DNA from: a virus
Length of the DNA: 21,106 nt
Virus record (IMG/VR): IMGVR_UViG_3300036466_000380
Location: 1-21,106 of that record
Strand: one strand, 5' to 3'
Shown piece after piece: positions 835-17,680 of the stretch; position 1 is the stretch's first letter, and each line of letters starts with the position of its first letter. Made by a program: the position numbers and the translations under genes. The notes under the pieces were generated by a model that searched no databases, had not been told where the DNA came from, and worked only from the letters and a program-made list of their open reading frames with translations.

Positions 835-1143
835 TTAAGCGGGGAAAAACTGGTTTGCAATTGTTTTACATTCATTCCTAAAAGACTGATAAGAGTGGTA
901 CTCATCCACGTGCGATGGTTCGTTATCCTGATAATTGTTTATCAAGGCGAGTTCATCATCAGGGGTGTATTCTCTTCTGATAAGAGCAGCAATAAGTGCG
1001 CTGCGATTGGCTGCACTGACGACGCATTCAAATTCAAACACCGTTCCGTCTTCCGTTGTTTTCTCCTGGATATTGAAGTTAAAACGCTTTTTCCGACCAA
1101 GGTCTTCAACTTGCGGCGGCATCTCTGCTGACTGTGCTTTCAT
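835..1143 (-). CDS. 102 aa DGR-linked protein of unknown function
   Basis: The start codon at 1143 lies inside the 3' end of the reverse transcriptase gene, giving a 38 nt overlap in another frame, which suggests translational coupling. The protein has a charged N-terminus, then beta-like segments (RFNFNIQEK, TVFEFECVV), then helices (RSALIAALIRREY, DDELALINNY) and a C-terminal segment with several Tyr and His. It is about the length of the DGR accessory protein Avd, but it is acidic and does not look like Avd's basic four-helix bundle. I therefore do not call it Avd. It may be a different accessory factor, or a fibre-related factor. I recognise no catalytic motif. Confidence 0.8.
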   Translation of the reverse strand: MKAQSAEMPPQVEDLGRKKRFNFNIQEKTTEDGTVFEFECVVSAANRSALIAALIRREYTPDDELALINNYQDNEPSHVDEYHSYQSFRNECKTIANQFFPA

Positions 1144-2089
1144 AAAAATATTTTTTTTGAAGGTTGTAACAATTGGCGTGTTTCATCCACCCATAATAAC
1201 TTGGAAATGCTTTTTCGTTCCCGGATGCGATTGCTTTTAGCATGTTCTTTTTTATTTGCTTTCGAAGCAATGTGTAGCCATGAAAAAAGCGATAGCCCAG
1301 AAAATCAATGCCACGGCTATCGACCGGGAATATCTGATAATTAGACTTGATTGATAATCTTAGCCTTTTGCCCAGATAGTTCCTGCTTTTCCTTAATACG
1401 TGATGAAGAAACTTTTTGTCATGAGACAGAATTACCACATCATCGCAATAGCGGAAATAATATTTTGCTTTTAATTGCTCCTTACAGTAGTGGTCGAAGC
1501 CTGACAAATACAAGTTACCAAAGATTTGAGATAGCAGATTCCCAATTGGGAGACCCTTTTCTTTGTCGATAATCTCATCCAGAAGCCAAAGAAGATCCTT
1601 ATCCTTTATTTTTGAACGAAGAATTTGCTTTAGAACATCATTGTCGATTGATGGATAAAATTTGGTTATATCCATTTTGAGACAATAGCGGGTTTGCTCT
1701 TTATTTTTCAGTGATTGTCTTATTCGGCTTGCTCCATCATGAATGCCTCTGTTTTTTATCGATGAATAAGTGTCGCGTATAAGAGTATTTGTCCAAAGTG
1801 GCTCCACGATATTCATGACAGCATGATGTACTATGCGATCCGGGAAGTAGGGCAGTTTGTAAATTTCTCTCATTTTTACGCCGCACTTTTTGGTAAATAT
1901 ATCATAGTCGGCACATCGATATGTTTTATTCACCAATTGATGGTGAATTTCATCAACACAATAATCGATATTATCATTCACCCACTTCACATCCTTATAA
2001 AAGCTTTTACCCTTTCTGGCTTTGATGTGGGCGGCAAGAATATTCTCCTTGTCTGCAATGCGATTGTATAAATTATTGTGTCGTTTCAT
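1106..2089 (-). CDS. DGR-type reverse transcriptase
   Basis: This 327 aa protein has the ordered motifs of a DGR/group II-type reverse transcriptase: KMDITKFYPSID (138-149, first catalytic Asp D140), IGNLLSQ (182-188), YCDD (214-217, catalytic Asp pair) and FLGYRFF (263-269). The IGxxxSQ form of the motif B region is characteristic of DGR RTs, which copy TR RNA into cDNA with errors at adenines. The YxDD box has Cys where Met or Ala is usual. The full palm is present and I see no frameshift, so it should be active. The gene starts 103 nt downstream of the TR and is followed by two overlapping or abutting small genes. The RT probably acts with TR RNA and an accessory protein. I am very confident of the family. 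Confidence 0.96.
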   Translation of the reverse strand: MKRHNNLYNRIADKENILAAHIKARKGKSFYKDVKWVNDNIDYCVDEIHHQLVNKTYRCADYDIFTKKCGVKMREIYKLPYFPDRIVHHAVMNIVEPLWTNTLIRDTYSSIKNRGIHDGASRIRQSLKNKEQTRYCLKMDITKFYPSIDNDVLKQILRSKIKDKDLLWLLDEIIDKEKGLPIGNLLSQIFGNLYLSGFDHYCKEQLKAKYYFRYCDDVVILSHDKKFLHHVLRKSRNYLGKRLRLSIKSNYQIFPVDSRGIDFLGYRFFHGYTLLRKQIKKNMLKAIASGNEKAFPSYYGWMKHANCYNLQKKYFYESTVSRDAAAS

Positions 2090-2194
2090 GCTTTGCTTTT
2101 ATGAGCCCGGAATCTTCGCCAGTGGCTACCAATACCGTTGTGGCTATGCGTTTTGTATTTTGCCAAGAGGCAGCGTCCACGGATACTCCTGATT
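2090..2194 (-). ncRNA. Spacer between TR and RT, probable 3' part of the DGR template RNA
   Basis: This is the 105 nt stretch between the TR end and the RT start codon. In characterised DGRs, such as the Bordetella phage BPP-1 system, the RNA downstream of TR is needed for cDNA priming, so this region is the expected counterpart. The minus-strand frame through TR stays open a short way into it before a stop at 2144. I see no late element and no good promoter here. Exact RNA ends cannot be read from sequence. Confidence 0.5.
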
Positions 2195-2319
2195 AAAGCT
2201 TAGGTGGGAACCGATATTCGGGTTCGAATTCGTGGAATCGTTATTCGCATTCAGCGCACTGACACCCGCTTGAGCGCCATTATTCGACGTGCCACCTGAC
2301 AGGCACACCCGCCAGTCCG
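2195..2319 (-). repeat. DGR template repeat (TR)
   Basis: This 125 nt block aligns without gaps to 2396-2520, the end of the fibre gene, at a constant offset of 201. There are 23 mismatches, and 21 fall where the TR coding strand has A. The TR holds 28 adenines, so three quarters are changed in VR while nearly all other bases are kept. TR codons include eight AAT/AAC, the classic DGR pattern. It sits between the target gene and the RT, in the same orientation as both. It reads as an open frame only because it mirrors the VR frame. The signature is close to decisive. Confidence 0.97.
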
Positions 2320-2392
2320 AATATCGCATCCGTGCAACGCTTATTTATTAAACATATTTTAACACTCTCAAAAATTTCCGACCGCCCTGCGC

Positions 2393-5245
2393 TTAAAAGC
2401 AAAGGCGGGAACCGAGAGCCGGGTACGAATGCGCGGAATCGCTAGACGCAACCAGCGCACCGACACCCGCTTGAGCGCCAATAGCCGACGAGCCACCCGA
2501 CCAGCACACCCGCCAGCCCGTGTTTGTCCATAGTGCGTCACCATAGCCACTGACAGAGCTACCACCAGTACTTTTAGGAACAAACGCACCACCGAATGAA
2601 TGCAATCTATTATAGAACGAACCTCCTGCAACAGGCATTAATAATGAGTTATCACCGTAACCCGAAGCGGTATCTGAAGCAATCACAGACTTATTGTTTG
2701 TGACCAATAAGTTTCTGTCATATACATTCGCGGCATCCATAAATTTCCACAGATGTCCCCATAGGTTCTCAATACCACGGTAACTGTTCCCAACTACTTT
2801 ATCTGCTAACCACAATGCATCGGAATAAATATCAGAATCCAGCCAACTATCAGCATACACAATGCCATTGCTGTGTCCAAAGTGTAATGATCGCCCTGTT
2901 TTACGGCCGTCCGATGAACGAAAACCATCTCTCCATATATAAGATAACAATCTGAAATCAGAGTTCATATCTGCATATTCGACATAGAATAACAACTGCA
3001 TTGCGTGATAATACCAGAACATATGTTGTTGCCACCCTATGCCTCTCGCTTGGGCATCTGCTCTAAAATCCACGATATTCTTATTTACAGTAGGGATGTA
3101 ACCGGGCAGGCTGCACATTTTAGTGCCGTCAACGTATCCCTCAAAAGCAGAGAAGTAGATAGCCGGTAGGATTGTTCCAGTGCCATCGACAAAAGCCGGA
3201 TGCACCGAGAATCCGGCATAAGGATAAGTACTCACATCTACTTTCATAAGAGATGCTCCAGATACAGATGGGGAGGGCTCAAAAGTGTGCCTGTAATAAA
3301 ATAACGGAACTTTAACCATTACCTGTCCATCTGAGCCGTCAAACTTTGCGGTCATTATCTCAAATGTATCGTCAAGATCGAATGTATTGTCAGCCGCCGA
3401 AAATGAACGGGGGTCTTCAATCGTTAGCGTATTGTCATCGACCTTGCTTGTAATCTTACAATAACGATTTGTTTTCCCACTCGTGGTATTGTGAACGTAA
3501 TGACCTACATAGTTATCGGCTGTAAGAGGGAAACTGCCAGTTGATATAAGCTGCAAGCGTGATCCTGTTGTAACTGTGCCGGTAATTGAAGGGTAAACCC
3601 CCTGCTTATTGTAAGAATTAACAGCGTCCAAGAAGTAATTCTCTGTACCATCATCCAGCAACATCACTCGCTTAATACGATTATGCACAGTAAGCATAGA
3701 TTCAGGAATGTTGGAATTTGGGCGGGTATTGATACTATAACTTTCTTCGCTGTAAGCTCCACCCCCGGCATAACCTCCAAGAGTCCCTCTGCGAACCGCT
3801 CCGGTAACCGGGCGCCCTTCATCGAATTCTATTCCGTACCACCCCAGGTTATCTCCATCGGGAGATGTTCCGCCAGGATTAAAGTTTGCAATTTGGTTCT
3901 GAACCATTTCCTCTGACCATTTTTTAGGAACAGGGTCATCATCGTGTGTTGGGGTAAACGAGCCTGATGCACCACCTTTTAATATTACCTCCGATTTGTA
4001 GGCAATATTACTGCTTTCACGGATTATCTTGTACCAGTACGTATTCCCGTCGTACCAGAAATCAATGGTATTCTTTGTGCCATTGATATTATTCCAGATC
4101 ATTGAGTCCGGAGATTGTTTGAATGCCGGATCAAAGCCTGGAACATTGGCACTATTACCGTCTGCTGTCATTACAACAATACAACGCCCTCCTGATATTG
4201 CATTCGCTGTTATTGGCACAAACACCCGTTCTGCATTAGATGCAGTAAGTGGCATAGAAGATAGCATTGAATTGAAAGGGATGTTCACGGAAAAAGCGAC
4301 GTCCTGCTTACGTGTCTCAGTCACTGCCTGCTGAACCGAGGTACCGTCGGCCATCTGTACTTCTGTTGCCTGATGGGTATGTCCCTCTGTGCTGAAGACT
4401 TTTGTCTTTACCCAGCGCCCCGGATCACCGCTGGCAACATCATCAGGTTTCAGATAATTATCACCGTCATCCTCAGCCGTGGTGGTTGCGTTGTATTCGT
4501 AGATGGCTCCGGTTGTGTAGTTTCCTACATCCATGCCGGCATCGTGAGTGGTTAGTGCGCGTATGGCTGCTGCATCGGCTTCCCAGGTGGAGGGGAGGCC
4601 GGTGGCGCCGGATGCCAAACTCCCATCCTCAACCCACCTACCGGCCGCTTCCGAGTTGTCATTCGGTTGCAGCCCCTCGGTAGCCGTTGCACTATACCGG
4701 TAAATAATACCCGTCGATTTATCCACTGCATTGTTCCCATCCTTGTAGTCGGTAAGGGCGCGGATGGCAGCCGTGGAAGCAAAGAAAACACTTGCAAGGG
4801 TGCCGCCGCCAACTTCAACAGTTTGTCCCTGTGCTTCCCACTTGGCAGGATGTGTTTCCGGGCTCTCGCCCTGTAAGGCATTTTCCACGCATCGGTAAAT
4901 AGACTCATCGTGAAAGACCGGATCCGCCGACTCCGTATTTTTATAAGTAACGTAAGTGTTGCCCGCATAGTAGGCATACCCGTTCTCATCGTTAGGGCGG
5001 GCGGCATCGTACACTCCCACATTTTCGGGAGTGAGCGTTTGCGTGGGGGCGTTGATGCTTTTTATTTCGGTGCCGTTGTTGTAGTACCAGGTGTCACCGG
5101 GCTGGTTGTATGCCCACATGCCCGGCAGTAGGTCTGTGCTTTTCCACTCCGGAGAGGAGGGATTGATGCCCTCAGCGGGAATTGTGGGCTTCTGACCGCC
5201 TATCTTTAAAATGAGATGCTGTATGTGCGTGCCTTGTAGTATCAT
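2393..5245 (-). CDS. DGR-diversified tail fibre/receptor-binding protein with C-terminal C-type-lectin (FGE-like) domain
   Basis: This 950 aa protein starts at 5245 with a 1 nt overlap (TAATG) with the upstream 284 aa gene. Residues 1-60 form an N-terminal attachment-type segment. Residues 89-140 are an aromatic, carbohydrate-binding-like stretch. Residues 159-205 and 226-279 are two related modules (AAIRAL ... IY.Y.AT ... GRWV). A DGTSVQQAV segment is near residue 300. The last roughly 280 residues form an FGE/C-type-lectin-like domain, with RGIENLWGHLWKFMD, PVAGGSFYNRLHSFGGAF and GWRVCWSGG as recognisable parts. The VR encodes the final 42 residues. This is the usual architecture of a DGR target displayed on a phage tail. 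The binding ligand is presumably on the host surface but cannot be inferred. Confidence 0.93.
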   Translation of the reverse strand: MILQGTHIQHLILKIGGQKPTIPAEGINPSSPEWKSTDLLPGMWAYNQPGDTWYYNNGTEIKSINAPTQTLTPENVGVYDAARPNDENGYAYYAGNTYVTYKNTESADPVFHDESIYRCVENALQGESPETHPAKWEAQGQTVEVGGGTLASVFFASTAAIRALTDYKDGNNAVDKSTGIIYRYSATATEGLQPNDNSEAAGRWVEDGSLASGATGLPSTWEADAAAIRALTTHDAGMDVGNYTTGAIYEYNATTTAEDDGDNYLKPDDVASGDPGRWVKTKVFSTEGHTHQATEVQMADGTSVQQAVTETRKQDVAFSVNIPFNSMLSSMPLTASNAERVFVPITANAISGGRCIVVMTADGNSANVPGFDPAFKQSPDSMIWNNINGTKNTIDFWYDGNTYWYKIIRESSNIAYKSEVILKGGASGSFTPTHDDDPVPKKWSEEMVQNQIANFNPGGTSPDGDNLGWYGIEFDEGRPVTGAVRRGTLGGYAGGGAYSEESYSINTRPNSNIPESMLTVHNRIKRVMLLDDGTENYFLDAVNSYNKQGVYPSITGTVTTGSRLQLISTGSFPLTADNYVGHYVHNTTSGKTNRYCKITSKVDDNTLTIEDPRSFSAADNTFDLDDTFEIMTAKFDGSDGQVMVKVPLFYYRHTFEPSPSVSGASLMKVDVSTYPYAGFSVHPAFVDGTGTILPAIYFSAFEGYVDGTKMCSLPGYIPTVNKNIVDFRADAQARGIGWQQHMFWYYHAMQLLFYVEYADMNSDFRLLSYIWRDGFRSSDGRKTGRSLHFGHSNGIVYADSWLDSDIYSDALWLADKVVGNSYRGIENLWGHLWKFMDAANVYDRNLLVTNNKSVIASDTASGYGDNSLLMPVAGGSFYNRLHSFGGAFVPKSTGGSSVSGYGDALWTNTGWRVCWSGGSSAIGAQAGVGALVASSDSAHSYPALGSRLCF
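2396..2520 (-). repeat. DGR variable repeat (VR) at the 3' end of the target gene
   Basis: This block matches the TR (2195-2319) and encodes the last 41-42 residues of the 950 aa protein, ending at the TAA stop at 2395-2393. Relative to TR, Asn codons have become Ala, Ile, Val, Ser, His and Tyr, with changes spread along the whole length. Constant parts (GWRVC, GAQAGV, AL, GS) fit the conserved scaffold of a C-type-lectin fold, with variable residues between. Only two bases of one codon differ at non-adenines (CTG in TR, TGG in VR, 2502-2503). Confidence 0.97.
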
Positions 5246-6099
5246 TAGAGCCGTTCTATTTTTATATTACAAATTTCCATCATTGAACCGGGGAGAAGTG
5301 TCATTGGATCAAAAGATGCAGCCCCCAGCTGAAGCTGCAAATAGATATGGTCAAACAAGTCGTAGTACCAATCCCCGTATTTGTAAAAACTATCCCAATA
5401 CAATCCAATTAGGGCTGATTTGGCATAACCTCCTGAATAAGGGTTCGTAACAAAACCGGCACCGTTTATTCGACTGGCTTCAAAAGAATCGTAAAACTGT
5501 TGATTAACCTTAAAATCTGCGCTCACACGGAAATTATTTCCAACGCCTGACGCCAAATCAAAATACCCGAGTTTCTCCAGATCCAACTCTAATACTTTAA
5601 AATTTTCACCGCCAAAATCTCCATCCAACGTCAGCCCATTGGGAAACTCAACTGCATACGATGATTGTCCACTGTATCTCCCTCCATTCTCACGCTCATA
5701 TACCAATACATCAGTTTCAATATTGGCAGATGGAGCGGACTCAAGAATCTTAGCCGTATCGATTTTAATCGGTATATCAAGTGGTGCCGGGGCAGGCTCA
5801 TCCGGTTCCTCCACCCCGTTAGCCGTTATCATCTTCAGATTCATCCACACCACATCCTCTACAATCTTAAACTGCTCCGAAAACTGGGTGTCGCCCACTG
5901 CACCGCCACCGGCACGATTGCGAAGTTCCTGAATGGCCTTTTCTATACTGGTACCATCCAGCAGATGCATTTCCGCCGTAGAGTCAAGAATATTGACAAT
6001 AAACTGGCGAAGCACAGGACCGGTAATCTCTTTATTGAGATTGGCCCAGACAAAGTCGCTGATAAGTTGAAGGTATTGTTCGCGTGATAATCGTGCCAT
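5245..6099 (-). CDS. Tail/baseplate or fibre-adaptor protein, 284 aa
   Basis: The gene follows a late-gene element (6144-6153) with a 44 nt leader and overlaps the fibre gene by one base. The N-terminus (MARLSREQYLQLISDF, then ITGPVLRQFIVNILDS) is helical. Residues 45-60 contain LLDGTSIEKAIQEL, closely similar to ADGTSVQQAVTETR in the fibre protein. The rest is beta-rich with many aromatics (YWDSFYKYGDWYYDLF near the end). No membrane segment or enzyme motif is visible. Position between tape measure and fibre, and tight coupling to the fibre, point to a distal tail or fibre-attachment component. I do not recognise the exact family. Confidence 0.85.
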   Translation of the reverse strand: MARLSREQYLQLISDFVWANLNKEITGPVLRQFIVNILDSTAEMHLLDGTSIEKAIQELRNRAGGGAVGDTQFSEQFKIVEDVVWMNLKMITANGVEEPDEPAPAPLDIPIKIDTAKILESAPSANIETDVLVYERENGGRYSGQSSYAVEFPNGLTLDGDFGGENFKVLELDLEKLGYFDLASGVGNNFRVSADFKVNQQFYDSFEASRINGAGFVTNPYSGGYAKSALIGLYWDSFYKYGDWYYDLFDHIYLQLQLGAASFDPMTLLPGSMMEICNIKIERL

Positions 6100-6153: not shown

Positions 6154-9100
6154 TCAGGTCTGAACGTCCCGCTCTATGCGGTCCATTTTGGCCATTGACT
6201 TCTTAAAATAATCGTGCGACCATACGCCCTGAACGCCATTAGCCTCAATTCTATCCAATACAGAATTAAGCCTGTTTAGGGAGTTGGTCATTTCTGGATC
6301 TGAATAAGGTAGTGTGATGTTTTGCGTGGGCGCCGGTGCATTGGCATATCCTCCCTGTTGGCGACCGGGAACTGACCGCCCCCCCATTACACTGGTAAGA
6401 TCGAGCTGGGCAATACTGCCATTTTTCTGCGCAATGTCGATAATGTCCAAAAACGGTTTAATGGTAGGATTGCGTACCGCAGGCGCTGATGCGATAAACT
6501 CATTCGCATGATAAATACCCACCGGAGTGGAGTCGGAAGCGTCGCGTTCAGCGTATCCTCCTGATTGGAGGCCGGGGAGTTCTTGTTTAGATGAAGAAGA
6601 TTCATTACTACTTTTTTTCATCGATACAATATGGCCAACTGCCTGAGCAGTAACCAATGCTGTTTGAACGGCGCCCATAGCATAGTTAGCAGACACCCAC
6701 GGTTGACCTCCGGTTAGGGGAGATGCCGCAATGGCTTTTGCATTAGCCTTAGCAATATTCACCCAAATTTCACCAATAGCCAAAGCTTTTTGTAGTCCAA
6801 ATAAAGCCATTCCCATAGATGATTCCTGAGAAACCAATCCACTCAGAGCACTTAAATATTGTTGCCCCGTTTGAATGTTTGTTTGAGCTAAGTCGTAACG
6901 TGATTGAGCTTGCTCCTGATTAAGGGCAATCATTTGTTGACTATACCGTTTTTCGGCAGCAGCAAGAGCTGCCTGATTGTCTCCGGCTAACTGTTGTTCT
7001 CTTTTATACTGCGCTTCAATTAATGAGTTTTTTTGCTCATAATACTCATTGATATGTTCAAAATCCACGAACCCCAACTCATTGGTGGCATCAACAAACT
7101 CGCTTCCTTCACTATCAACCCCGAATTTAATCTCTCTCATTCGTTGTTGATGAGCTCTTTCTTTTTCTTCTATAAGTGCATACACCGTTTCGTTGTATGC
7201 AAGTTCCTGCTCAGAAAGTTCCTCTTTTTGTATAACCTGTTGAGCCAAATTTTCTCTTTCACTTTCCCATCTGGCTTGCTCCATTGCCTGCTCTTTAGCT
7301 ACACCTTCGCTCATATTCTGAAGTCTAGCTTCTGTTAATTCCTGCTGAGCAGTAATCATTCTTTCCTTTATAGCCTCATCAACATCTGCTTGTTTTTTAA
7401 GAAACTGTGCCAGGGTTTCTTCGTACTCAACGCTACCATTCTCAAGATATTCAAGTTTTTTCTTTAAAAAAGTAAGGTCAGCTCTCAATACATCTGACCG
7501 ATATTCATCTTCTGTTATCTTTTTGCTGTGAAGATTTTGTTCTAAAACAGCCAATTGTTTGGCGTAACTGTCTTTAAATTCCTGTTCAAGCCCCTTATCA
7601 ATCAAATCCAACTCCATTTTATCCATCTCAGCCAATGACCGCTCAAATTCATCCTGAAAAGAACTAGTATCAATTTTTGGAGCTAATGTTATTGTTGATT
7701 TAGGTTTATCTCCTTCTCCAGAAACAGCCTTTACGTAATCACTTATTGCTTGTTGAATTCGTTCAATAGATAGCCCTGTTCTATTTGCCAGATCTTCATC
7801 AGACAAACCGATTTCTCTTAACTTCAACAAGGAGGTAGCTAGTTTTTTATTATTCTCTTCTAGTATAGCATTTTGCTGCTTAATAGTCTTAATGTTCGTT
7901 TTCCTAAAATTTTCTTCAACTACGGCTCTATCCACTTTCGAGTAAGCTGCTGCTTTATCTATTACAGATTCATTTTTTAATAATTCTTGTTTTTCCTGAA
8001 TAACCCTATTTGAGTTTTCAATTATTGAATTATAAGACTCTATTTGTTCTGAAATATCATCAATCACCTCTGATTGCATTTCAACATTCAGCAACCTTTG
8101 AGCTTCTCTGGCCTCGATTATTTTATCCTTATTAATGCTTATTGCATTACCATACTTGTCAACTTCTGAGATCGCACCAGGTACAATCTCACCTATCTTA
8201 CGTATAGCATCGTTTAATTTTCCCTGCTCATCTTTTGTTAGATTAGTCTTCCCTTGCAAACTATCATAAGTCACCAATAATTCAGATAAAGCTGAACTTT
8301 CGTTATCAAAAGATTCGATTCTTTTTTCTGAAACATCAAGATCGTCAAACAACCGGGCTTCCCTGGTTGAATTCAAGTACTCCACCACATTTTCTTTCAT
8401 CTGTTTCCACCAGGCGGTAACAGACTTCTGCATCCTCAATAACTTATTCCCCTCCCGGTTATAAGCCGCCTGCGCATCAGTAGATTTACGCTGAATAAGT
8501 TCAAGTGTAGCAAGTGCCTGAGCTTGAGCCTTAGTAACATTCCCCGCAGCTTCTTTCTGCTTCACCAGGTCTTTATACTCATCGCTGTCCTGGCGAATAG
8601 CAATACCCAATTGTTTCAGCTGTTCATTCTCACCCAGCATGGCTTTTGTGAGTATTTGAGAAACACCGGCAGCACCATATTGGCCGCCTGTCCACTCGTC
8701 CAATGCTCCGGATAAGCTCTGGAGCTCCACCGACATCTCGGCGGCCTGTTCGCGGGTAAAATCGAGCGGAATAAGCAAGTCACCGGTAGCAGTAGCAGCC
8801 GCCACGAACTCACGAGTGGTAAGTCCCATTTTTGCGGCCAGTTGTTCGGCCTGTTCGGTTACATATCCCAAGTTGTCTCCAAACACCTGACTGCTTCGGA
8901 TGGAGTCGGCCTCCATTACTTTTGCGAGATTGAAGAGTTCGGAAACGGCTCCTTTCAGTACGCCCACCAATGCACCCACTCCGGCAATGGGAAGCAACTC
9001 CCTGAATATGCCAAAGCTGCGTCCGGCACGCTTACTGCCGGTGTTCACCTGGTCCATGCGCCCTTTTACGGCATTAAGTTGTTTGTTGTAGTTTTTCCAT

Positions 9101-9447
9101 GCGGCAGTTCCGGGAGTGGTACTGTCCATGGCTTGCTTAAGTTTGCGGTATTCCGTACGAAGCTGTTTCGCGGTGAGTCCATTAAGCCCAACTTCTTTGC
9201 GCAAGACCTCCATGCGCGACTTATTGGTTCTGATAGTGGCATTATTCTCCCGTATCTGCTTTTGCAACCGTCCGTATTCGTTAGTATTTGCTTTTCCGGC
9301 GGCTTCCAGTTTTTTTAGCTCCAGACGCAAATTTTTATTAGTTGCCTGCAACCCCTTGGTAGATTGTTCCAGCGTACCAAGTTCCTTCCGGGCCTTGCTC
9401 CCGTTTATGTCAATATTGAGTCTTAGAGTATCATCAGTGAGCGCCAT
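6154..9447 (-). CDS. Phage tail tape measure protein, 1097 aa
   Basis: This is by far the longest gene and has typical tape-measure architecture. Residues 1-150 are Lys/Glu/Leu-rich coiled coil (GSKARKELGTLEQSTKGL onward). A hydrophobic stretch LLPIAGVGALVGVL (151-164) leads into a conserved core (about 175-330: MEADSIRSSQVFG, TREFVAAATATGD, GVSQILTKAM). A long helical region follows, then a second Ala/Gly-rich hydrophobic segment (876-943) and a C-terminal GIYHANEFIAS motif near 977. Such proteins set tail length and form part of the DNA-ejection channel. Its length fits a long, non-podovirus tail of about 165 nm if the usual 1.5 angstrom per residue holds. Several start codons are near the N-terminus; ATG at 9447 puts the late element 44 nt upstream. 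Confidence 0.95.
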   Translation of the reverse strand: MALTDDTLRLNIDINGSKARKELGTLEQSTKGLQATNKNLRLELKKLEAAGKANTNEYGRLQKQIRENNATIRTNKSRMEVLRKEVGLNGLTAKQLRTEYRKLKQAMDSTTPGTAAWKNYNKQLNAVKGRMDQVNTGSKRAGRSFGIFRELLPIAGVGALVGVLKGAVSELFNLAKVMEADSIRSSQVFGDNLGYVTEQAEQLAAKMGLTTREFVAAATATGDLLIPLDFTREQAAEMSVELQSLSGALDEWTGGQYGAAGVSQILTKAMLGENEQLKQLGIAIRQDSDEYKDLVKQKEAAGNVTKAQAQALATLELIQRKSTDAQAAYNREGNKLLRMQKSVTAWWKQMKENVVEYLNSTREARLFDDLDVSEKRIESFDNESSALSELLVTYDSLQGKTNLTKDEQGKLNDAIRKIGEIVPGAISEVDKYGNAISINKDKIIEAREAQRLLNVEMQSEVIDDISEQIESYNSIIENSNRVIQEKQELLKNESVIDKAAAYSKVDRAVVEENFRKTNIKTIKQQNAILEENNKKLATSLLKLREIGLSDEDLANRTGLSIERIQQAISDYVKAVSGEGDKPKSTITLAPKIDTSSFQDEFERSLAEMDKMELDLIDKGLEQEFKDSYAKQLAVLEQNLHSKKITEDEYRSDVLRADLTFLKKKLEYLENGSVEYEETLAQFLKKQADVDEAIKERMITAQQELTEARLQNMSEGVAKEQAMEQARWESERENLAQQVIQKEELSEQELAYNETVYALIEEKERAHQQRMREIKFGVDSEGSEFVDATNELGFVDFEHINEYYEQKNSLIEAQYKREQQLAGDNQAALAAAEKRYSQQMIALNQEQAQSRYDLAQTNIQTGQQYLSALSGLVSQESSMGMALFGLQKALAIGEIWVNIAKANAKAIAASPLTGGQPWVSANYAMGAVQTALVTAQAVGHIVSMKKSSNESSSSKQELPGLQSGGYAERDASDSTPVGIYHANEFIASAPAVRNPTIKPFLDIIDIAQKNGSIAQLDLTSVMGGRSVPGRQQGGYANAPAPTQNITLPYSDPEMTNSLNRLNSVLDRIEANGVQGVWSHDYFKKSMAKMDRIERDVQT

Positions 9448-9463: not shown

Positions 9464-9501
9464 CAAAAAAAGCAGGTAATAAAAGCAGCAAAAAGGACAA
9501 T
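9464..9501 (-). promoter_or_regulatory. Late-gene element, copy 3
   Basis: ATTGTCCTTT at 9501-9492 overlaps the stop codon of the 162 aa gene. TTTTTTTG lies 20 nt later (9471-9464). The tape measure start at 9447 is 44 nt after the element. The first base differs from the TTTGTCCTTT consensus. Confidence 0.5.
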
Positions 9502-9989
9502 CAACGGTAACCGGTACGCATAGCCTTCGACAGCATGGCTCCCAAATTGCGGTCATATTCAGATATTCGTTCCAGAGCCATATTCGATATCTTATAGAAT
9601 GGCAAGTCCTGATCGTAAATGGCTTTCAGATCTTCGCCAATGGCTTCGCGGATGTCTTCGGTCAATCCCCACTGTAGGGTATTGATAGTCGGGTTGTAAA
9701 GCACTCCGAAAACAATCTTGTTGTAAAGGTGATACCCATCTTTCTTCCACTTGCGGCGCGGATCTTCCATGTCCAGCATACGCATGTAAGGCAGATACCG
9801 CATTGTAAGATTGCCGCCTCCATCCTGACTGCCAACAGAGAAATGCCCTGTCAGTGATTTGCGAAGGCGTCCGCTCTCAAACAGATTCCACTCCTCCACG
9901 GCTTTGCGTTGTTTCGACTGAATTATTTCAGCCGTTTCGCGCAGCACAGCCCCTATAAAGGCGGTTTTTATCCGTAAATCGTTTGGCAT
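9501..9989 (-). CDS. Putative neck/tail-completion protein, 162 aa
   Basis: This soluble protein sits just upstream of the tape measure and 3 nt after the 182 aa gene. The segment LFESGRLRKSLTGHFSV (residues 37-53) resembles the SGRLR-type motif of HK97 gp10-like neck proteins. It is followed by beta segments (LTMRYLPYMRMLDMEDPRR) and a helical C-terminus. Position between portal and tape measure also fits a head-tail joining or tail-completion role. The match is by pattern only, so other morphogenesis roles remain possible. Confidence 0.8.
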   Translation of the reverse strand: MPNDLRIKTAFIGAVLRETAEIIQSKQRKAVEEWNLFESGRLRKSLTGHFSVGSQDGGGNLTMRYLPYMRMLDMEDPRRKWKKDGYHLYNKIVFGVLYNPTINTLQWGLTEDIREAIGEDLKAIYDQDLPFYKISNMALERISEYDRNLGAMLSKAMRTGYR

Positions 9990-17128: not shown

Positions 17129-17680
17129 TTACGGTATAGGCTGCGAGGAAAACTCAATTTTTAATTGATTAAGCTGTCTTTTTGAAGCAGAAAGCCGCTT
17201 GTAATTGGCTTCTTTCTCCTTTTCCTCCAGTTCAAAATACTCTGCCATTTCAGGATATTTACTTAAAAGCTCCTTCTTTTTGGCCTCCCGCTGCGATTTA
17301 ATATTGAGTTTTTCAATCATTGCATCGCGCTGTTCCCGAAAATAATGGTTTATCATCCTGTCTATGGTAACATAAACCCATAATTCAAAAGCAGGATCTA
17401 ACCATGCAGCAAATTTCAAGGCCAAAATACGATGCATCCATGTTCCTGATTTTTGTTTTGAAACCAATAAATCTTCCTCCGATTCTATTCCTAAAAAGCG
17501 AGAATTCTCGCTTTTTAGACACTCATTTATAAATGATTTTGTGGTTTCATTTCTTACAAATGCCTCTACTTTGCGGCCAAAAACTTTCCCCATTTGGGTA
17601 GCATTAACCATTACATTGTCTTTTCCTGCCGATAAAAAATCCACAGGTTGATTATCGTAAATAAAATGTACTACTTCCAT
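17129..17680 (-). CDS. KilA-N domain protein, putative DNA-binding regulator
   Basis: This 183 aa protein has a KilA-N domain at about residues 20-110. VMVNATQMGKVFGRK is the usual opening, and GTWMHRILALKFAAWLDPAFELWV matches the conserved W.h..LA..fA.WL.P.F segment. Residues 118-180 are a Lys/Glu-rich coiled coil, suggesting dimerisation. KilA-N domains are common in phage antirepressors and regulators and are thought to bind DNA. It follows the RadC-like gene with 21 nt spacing and is the last gene before a strong terminator, so it is early or regulatory in character. Its target is unknown; the CTTAAG repeats upstream are one candidate. Confidence 0.92.
   Translation of the reverse strand: MEVVHFIYDNQPVDFLSAGKDNVMVNATQMGKVFGRKVEAFVRNETTKSFINECLKSENSRFLGIESEEDLLVSKQKSGTWMHRILALKFAAWLDPAFELWVYVTIDRMINHYFREQRDAMIEKLNIKSQREAKKKELLSKYPEMAEYFELEEKEKEANYKRLSASKRQLNQLKIEFSSQPIP

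Follow-up and report, generated by a model that had tools for sequence, protein, structure and literature searches.

The 21,106-base IMG/VR record IMGVR_UViG_3300036466_000380, analysed in its entirety and called the window here, is probably a fragment of a phage genome, and it raises two questions: whether a reverse transcriptase (RT) gene lying beside two long and nearly identical repeats belongs to a diversity-generating retroelement (DGR), and, if it does, how such an element might work with no detectable Avd. BPP-1, the main mechanistic model for DGRs, requires Avd. The cassette lies on the minus strand in the order target gene, variable repeat (VR), template repeat (TR), RT, and we argue below that it is almost certainly a complete and fairly ordinary Avd-less DGR of lineage 3, which would act by the route set out in the final section.

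The two repeats differ almost exclusively at template adenines

Read on the minus strand, the TR (2319-2195) and VR (2520-2396) align over 125 nt without a gap at 82% identity, and 21 of the 23 differences fall on the 28 adenines of the TR coding strand (A to G 9, A to T 7, A to C 5, C to T 1, T to G 1), a concentration with a hypergeometric P of about 7e-16; only 2 of the 97 non-adenine TR positions differ. Our recount reproduced exactly the coordinates and figures given in an earlier, first-pass annotation of this DNA. Because no difference falls on any VR adenine, the TR must be the donor and the direction of transfer, TR to VR, is unambiguous. No other direct repeat in the region approaches this length, the next being 23 and 22 nt, and near-identical repeats that differ at adenines of one copy are what a DGR should possess. 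Read in the VR frame, the TR contains 8 AAY codons, and mutation of its adenines can never turn a codon into a stop; the mutable adenines allow about 8e14 different proteins.

The two non-adenine differences, which count against the DGR reading, are adjacent (CT in the TR, TG in the VR; window 2302-2301 and 2503-2502) and replace Leu with Trp; they may possibly reflect a single event or selection on the fold. Also counting against it is the lack of a consistent stem-loop of the BPP-1 type after the VR, where the window gives a z of -2.1 and the relatives are inconsistent. Two other candidate features were set aside: complementarity of 10 bp between the TR 5′ flank and the TR 3′ end (CGATATTCGG/CCGAATATCG), which 18 of 200 shuffles equalled and which is not conserved in relatives; and a 61-aa ORF spanning the TR (2144-2329), which we regard as mechanical.

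The reverse transcriptase is of the DGR kind

The 327-aa RT (1106-2089, minus strand) matches RVT_1 (E 2.5e-15) and, far more strongly, phrog_1423 (E 3e-115, 387 bits); its best PDB match, aligned over RT residues 2 to 306, is 8ub7 (E 1.9e-40), which we take to be the BPP-1 bRT, the PDB file itself being named only "Reverse transcriptase". The ORF is full length, and the motifs that had been read from the sequence at first pass are both present and intact: LPIGNLLSQ, containing IGNLLSQ of the DGR form [I/L/V]GxxxSQ, and YCDD of the form YxDD; the phrog_1423 and 8ub7 matches agree with them, as does the place of the protein in an RT tree. The closest RT found is at most 58% identical.

One could suppose that the repeats are a coincidence or a plain duplication and that the RT next to them is something else (a defence RT, a group II intron RT, or a retron); generic DRT and group II intron RT models do match the window RT. 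Yet phrog_1423 and 8ub7 match it far more strongly than these models, which do not reach the NCBIfam cut-offs; the adenine bias has the P of about 7e-16 given above; and the cassette is conserved together with the RT in relatives. The mutation pattern and the relatives refute this explanation, to which we assign a vanishingly small probability.

The cassette belongs to the Avd-less lineage 3

No Avd-type ORF lies between target and RT, and the Pfam bAvd model (PF22296) finds nothing elsewhere in the window record, although the record is probably a fragment and an unlinked Avd is possible. The same model, at its curated cut-off, is likewise without a match in the records of 43 relatives, and it detects Avd in BPP-1 (123 bits), BalMu-1, YPCBV-1, phiARM81mr, VHML, and Magia as positive controls; it misses the Avd reported in a paper for phage nd4. 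Among the 43 relatives, the bacterial genome G025 gives a weak PF22296 match (26.9 bits against a cut-off of 40), located on a different contig from its DGR RNA. The alternative model PF05635 has no match, but also misses the BPP-1 Avd. In an RT tree (quickly built, with long branches and without the reference set of Wu et al.), the six Avd-bearing RTs and nd4 form one clade, and the window RT sits together with the RTs of ten Avd-less phages (SH-aLRT 90), the long branches leaving the details unsure.

The published precedent is crAssphage LMMB, which has the order TG-VR-TR-RT, lacks avd, and carries a lineage 3 RT; VRs of this lineage usually end in SRLC/A (PMC7290462). The window has the same target-VR-TR-RT order with no Avd detected, and its VR peptide ends in GSRLCF; unlike a BPP-1-type, Avd-dependent element, it has no Avd gene in the cassette. 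We conclude that it belongs to the known lineage 3. An initial description of the DGR as complete holds for this lineage, the absence of Avd being as published for LMMB (PMC7290462).

The comparison with LMMB goes further: i) in both, a tail-type gene carries the VR at its 3′ end; ii) the LMMB RT is 46% identical to that of the window; and iii) the LMMB spacer between TR and RT carries the RNA described below, at 57 bits. LMMB is crAss-like, however, and the SRLC/A end is gone from its VRs (PMC7290462), whereas the window terminase is not crAss-like and its target, at 950 aa, is longer. BPP-1 shares with the window the TR/VR logic, the gene order, the RT family (8ub7), a C-type-lectin-like target in the tail module, and a structured TR-RT spacer, but differs in having Avd between target and TR, and a spacer of the Phage_DGR family with an extra 5′ hairpin.

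The target is a tail-type protein with a predicted C-type-lectin-like domain

The target ORF (2393-5245, minus strand) encodes 950 aa and stops directly after the VR (2396-2520), which supplies its final codons. From residue 515 to 950 it matches phrog_5302, a family of tail proteins (E 2.7e-63). An AlphaFold model of residues 500-950 (pLDDT 74, pTM 0.81) finds as its best PDB match TaqVP (5vf4; Foldseek E 2.4e-5), a DGR variable protein from Thermus aquaticus with a C-type-lectin fold, at a Z of 18.5 over 247 residues against 7.5 for the next entry; a model of residues 672-950 (pLDDT 61) matches TaqVP alone (Z 11.6 over 215 residues). Thus the expectation that structure prediction of residues 672-950 would give a C-type-lectin fold was borne out by both models, and a C-type-lectin-like C-terminal half is supported at the level of prediction. 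The VR closes a gene of this predicted fold, and the VR end itself is modelled with low confidence, a further point against the DGR reading. TaqVP resembles the target in fold and in having its VR at the end, but is only about 20% identical over the aligned residues and is a protein of about 380 residues, whereas the window protein has 950 with a different N-terminal half. Most aligned targets share the pattern GG....G..AG and a VR end resembling G.RLC. In its N-terminal half (window 3700-4850) the target contains degenerate repeats of the type AIRALTDYKDG...IIYRY...GRWV, which from their sequence are possibly shaft modules.

The same-strand neighbours of the target are a 284-aa ORF (5245-6099), a tape measure gene (6154-9447, minus strand; phrog_25337, E 3.4e-23), a portal-like gene, and a terminase. 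The target had been described as lying beside the tape measure gene; its length of 950 aa stands and the tape measure gene is near, but the 284-aa ORF intervenes. This ORF had no family match in profile searches and is assigned to the tail module by position only. Tail family and neighbourhood together suggest that the target contacts the host. The terminase is 33-35% identical to terminases of Porphyromonas phages and further matches those of Flavobacterium and Cellulophaga phages, so that the host is probably a member of the Bacteroidota. A KilA-N domain protein (PF04383, E 8e-17) is encoded upstream of the packaging genes (17129-17680, minus strand).

The lineage is active

Relatives of the lineage were collected by RT searches (L001-L006, L008-L011, and L016-L095, plus named phages), and their repeats were found by a script seeking pairs that differ at A. 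The same DGR cassette occurs in about 80 relatives; nearly all have TR/VR pairs, in which one to three VRs precede a TR that itself lies just upstream of the RT, and several loci without a pair end close before the RT. The window itself is isolated: it has no near DNA relative among phages, neither its target nor its terminase has a near relative in IMG/VR, and a search with the TR/VR pattern, the covered adenines mostly masked, gave none.

Over 12,978 bp, L005 and L006, which come from two metagenome records, differ at just 20 positions, every one of them a substitution in the VR that faces a TR adenine. In a second pair (L091/L092), 16 of 18 substitutions in the 103-nt VR lie opposite TR A, with 104 substitutions across the other 8.3 kb; in a third (L080/L081) the figure is 21 of 36 VR substitutions. 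Judging by the VR divergence of L005 and L006, the lineage is active. These pairs establish that the lineage is able to work and do not extend to the window copy, whose own activity we consider likely. L005 also contains, far from its DGR, a second and weaker direct repeat (2560-2643 and 9473-9556), whose two copies differ at 10 positions, 7 of them adenines in one copy; this repeat is present in L006 as well.

The window might instead hold a genuine DGR whose VR was diversified formerly and whose cassette is now a relic or silenced; the two adjacent non-adenine differences hint at time since the last copying, and other near-identical pairs of relatives show no VR change. We consider this unlikely: the RT is full length with YCDD intact, the TR, VR, and spacer RNA are intact as well, and with so few non-adenine differences the TR and VR have not drifted apart.

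A conserved RNA lies between TR and RT

The spacer between TR and RT, overlooked in the first-pass annotation, is a conserved, covarying two-hairpin RNA (2104-2181, minus strand) with hairpins P1 at about 2173-2160 and P2 at about 2136-2109. In relatives the conserved stretch consists of CCUUGCCUCUUGGCAAAA, an A-rich linker, and then UUGGUAG...CGAAGACUC. Among 30 sequences, the 12 pairs of three helices are 91.9% paired, compared with 72% in shuffles and at most 52% when the alignment is slid, and there are 75 double changes compared with 21 in shuffles; for 78 sequences, in an alignment fitted to the model, the double changes number 206 compared with 52. The window spacer folded alone gives an uninformative z of 0.27, so the case for the RNA rests on covariation.

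A lineage model of the RNA, R1, matches the window spacer at 60.6 bits and finds the RNA upstream of the RT in 76 of 78 lineage loci, the window included (E up to 0.0034; 46 of the 76 outside the model). The RNA begins a median of 19 nt after the TR end (IQR 14-22) and ends a median of 12.5 nt before the RT start (IQR 11-17). Over 296 Bacteroidota genomes R1 has three matches, all preceding an RT of the lineage; the genome of L008 accounts for one.

The usual distance of 9-17 nt from RNA to RT start codon, and an Rfam family named after the nearby RT, could suggest that the RNA regulates the RT gene in cis or forms its leader, like a riboswitch or attenuator, and lies outside the template RNA. 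In L008, L003, and L090, however, the RT start is 1069, 791, and 193 nt from the RNA, which still lies 19-23 nt behind the TR; in L008 and L003 another gene separates the TR-linked RNA from the RT. Since the RNA keeps its distance from the TR where the RT start is far, it goes with the TR and not with the RT start. The BPP-1 spacer, which works together with the template (PMC12875486), has the same layout. A leader is thus quite improbable. The intervening gene in L008 (6901-7884) and L003 (3025-3786), judged by sequence, resembles a PAPS-reductase/ATP-pyrophosphatase.

In BPP-1 the folded spacer attracts bRT-Avd, and cDNA synthesis into the TR starts from an internal adenine as primer (PMC12875486). 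Because the window spacer parallels that of BPP-1 in position, conservation, and layout, we infer that it is probably the RNA that loads and primes the RT, the start signal of the DGR.

The spacer RNA is of the Rfam RT-17 type

Rfam at default cut-offs has no match in the window; below the curated score, RT-17 (RF03020) matches 2177-2089 at 37.5 bits (E 1.6e-5; cut-off 40.4), 3 bits under the gathering score for formal membership. The alignment runs end to end, and the window RNA has the hairpins, conserved core, and place of RT-17, one lineage model fitting both; the name RT-17 marks only nearness to an RT. The RT-17 cut-off is exceeded in L016, L046, L012, L019, L022, L017, L008, and L041; within one search set, 6 of 12 relatives lie above it. 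We did not find the link between RT-17 and DGRs in the literature searched, though it may have been stated elsewhere. Of what this analysis adds, the link to the spacers of Avd-less DGRs is the most useful, the DGR itself being of a known lineage.

Other RT-n families show similar placements. The BPP-1 spacer is Phage_DGR (RF03022); the TR-RT spacer contains RT-3 in hankyphage, RT-14 in BalMu-1, and RT-18 in L005; RT-18 stands just before the RT in LBR48; and in Magia (L110) RT-15 adjoins the TR on the opposite side, preceding it. These RNAs (RT-3, RT-14, RT-18, and RT-15: L107 2819-2968; L104 2831-2974; L103 702-777; L005 5915-5992; L110 2718-2900) all adjoin a DGR TR or RT, and several RT-n families may be DGR RNAs. 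Run against other DGR records totalling 105 kb, R1 has its ten best matches just before an RT in every case, among them weak ones in the Avd-bearing BalMu-1 (E 0.0012), YPCBV-1 (0.07), and phiARM81mr (0.19), and it has no match in BPP-1. Compared by eye, Phage_DGR is arranged similarly in its 3′ half (a hairpin, AAxACA, and a hairpin with GUA/GAA), and its 5′ hairpin has no counterpart in the window. These likenesses suggest an RNA core common to the spacers of Avd-less and Avd-bearing DGRs, and the GUA/GAA loop, on inspection, resembles a sarcin-ricin-type motif.

A proposed mechanism and its meaning

Carrying the BPP-1 scheme over to the window, i) a transcript with the TR and the structured spacer RNA would be bound by the RT without Avd; ii) the spacer would position and prime cDNA synthesis at the TR 3′ end; iii) the RT would misincorporate opposite TR adenines; iv) the mutated cDNA would take the place of the VR that closes the target gene; and v) residues at the tip of the C-type-lectin-like tail protein would be randomised, so that adsorption could change. 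That BPP-1 needs Avd counts against this Avd-less scheme.

More tentatively, as an idea that we hold possible but somewhat doubtful, the "orphan" RNAs RT-17 and RT-18 might be indispensable to Avd-less DGRs as the RNAs that prime and load the RT, sharing with Avd-dependent spacers a core (a hairpin, an A-rich linker, and a second hairpin with a GUA/GAA loop) minus the 5′ hairpin domain; RT and RNA would then suffice, and Avd would be an addition that arrived with an extra RNA domain. If this is true, RT and RNA alone would be enough for adenine mutagenesis and homing.

The window alone is one more phage DGR, and the lineage matters more: a large group of phages diversifies its targets with no detectable Avd, and the best candidate for explaining how is the conserved TR-RT spacer RNA. 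This RNA points to a function for an Rfam family whose name reflects nothing but proximity to an RT, and offers a small system of RT plus RNA for reconstitution.
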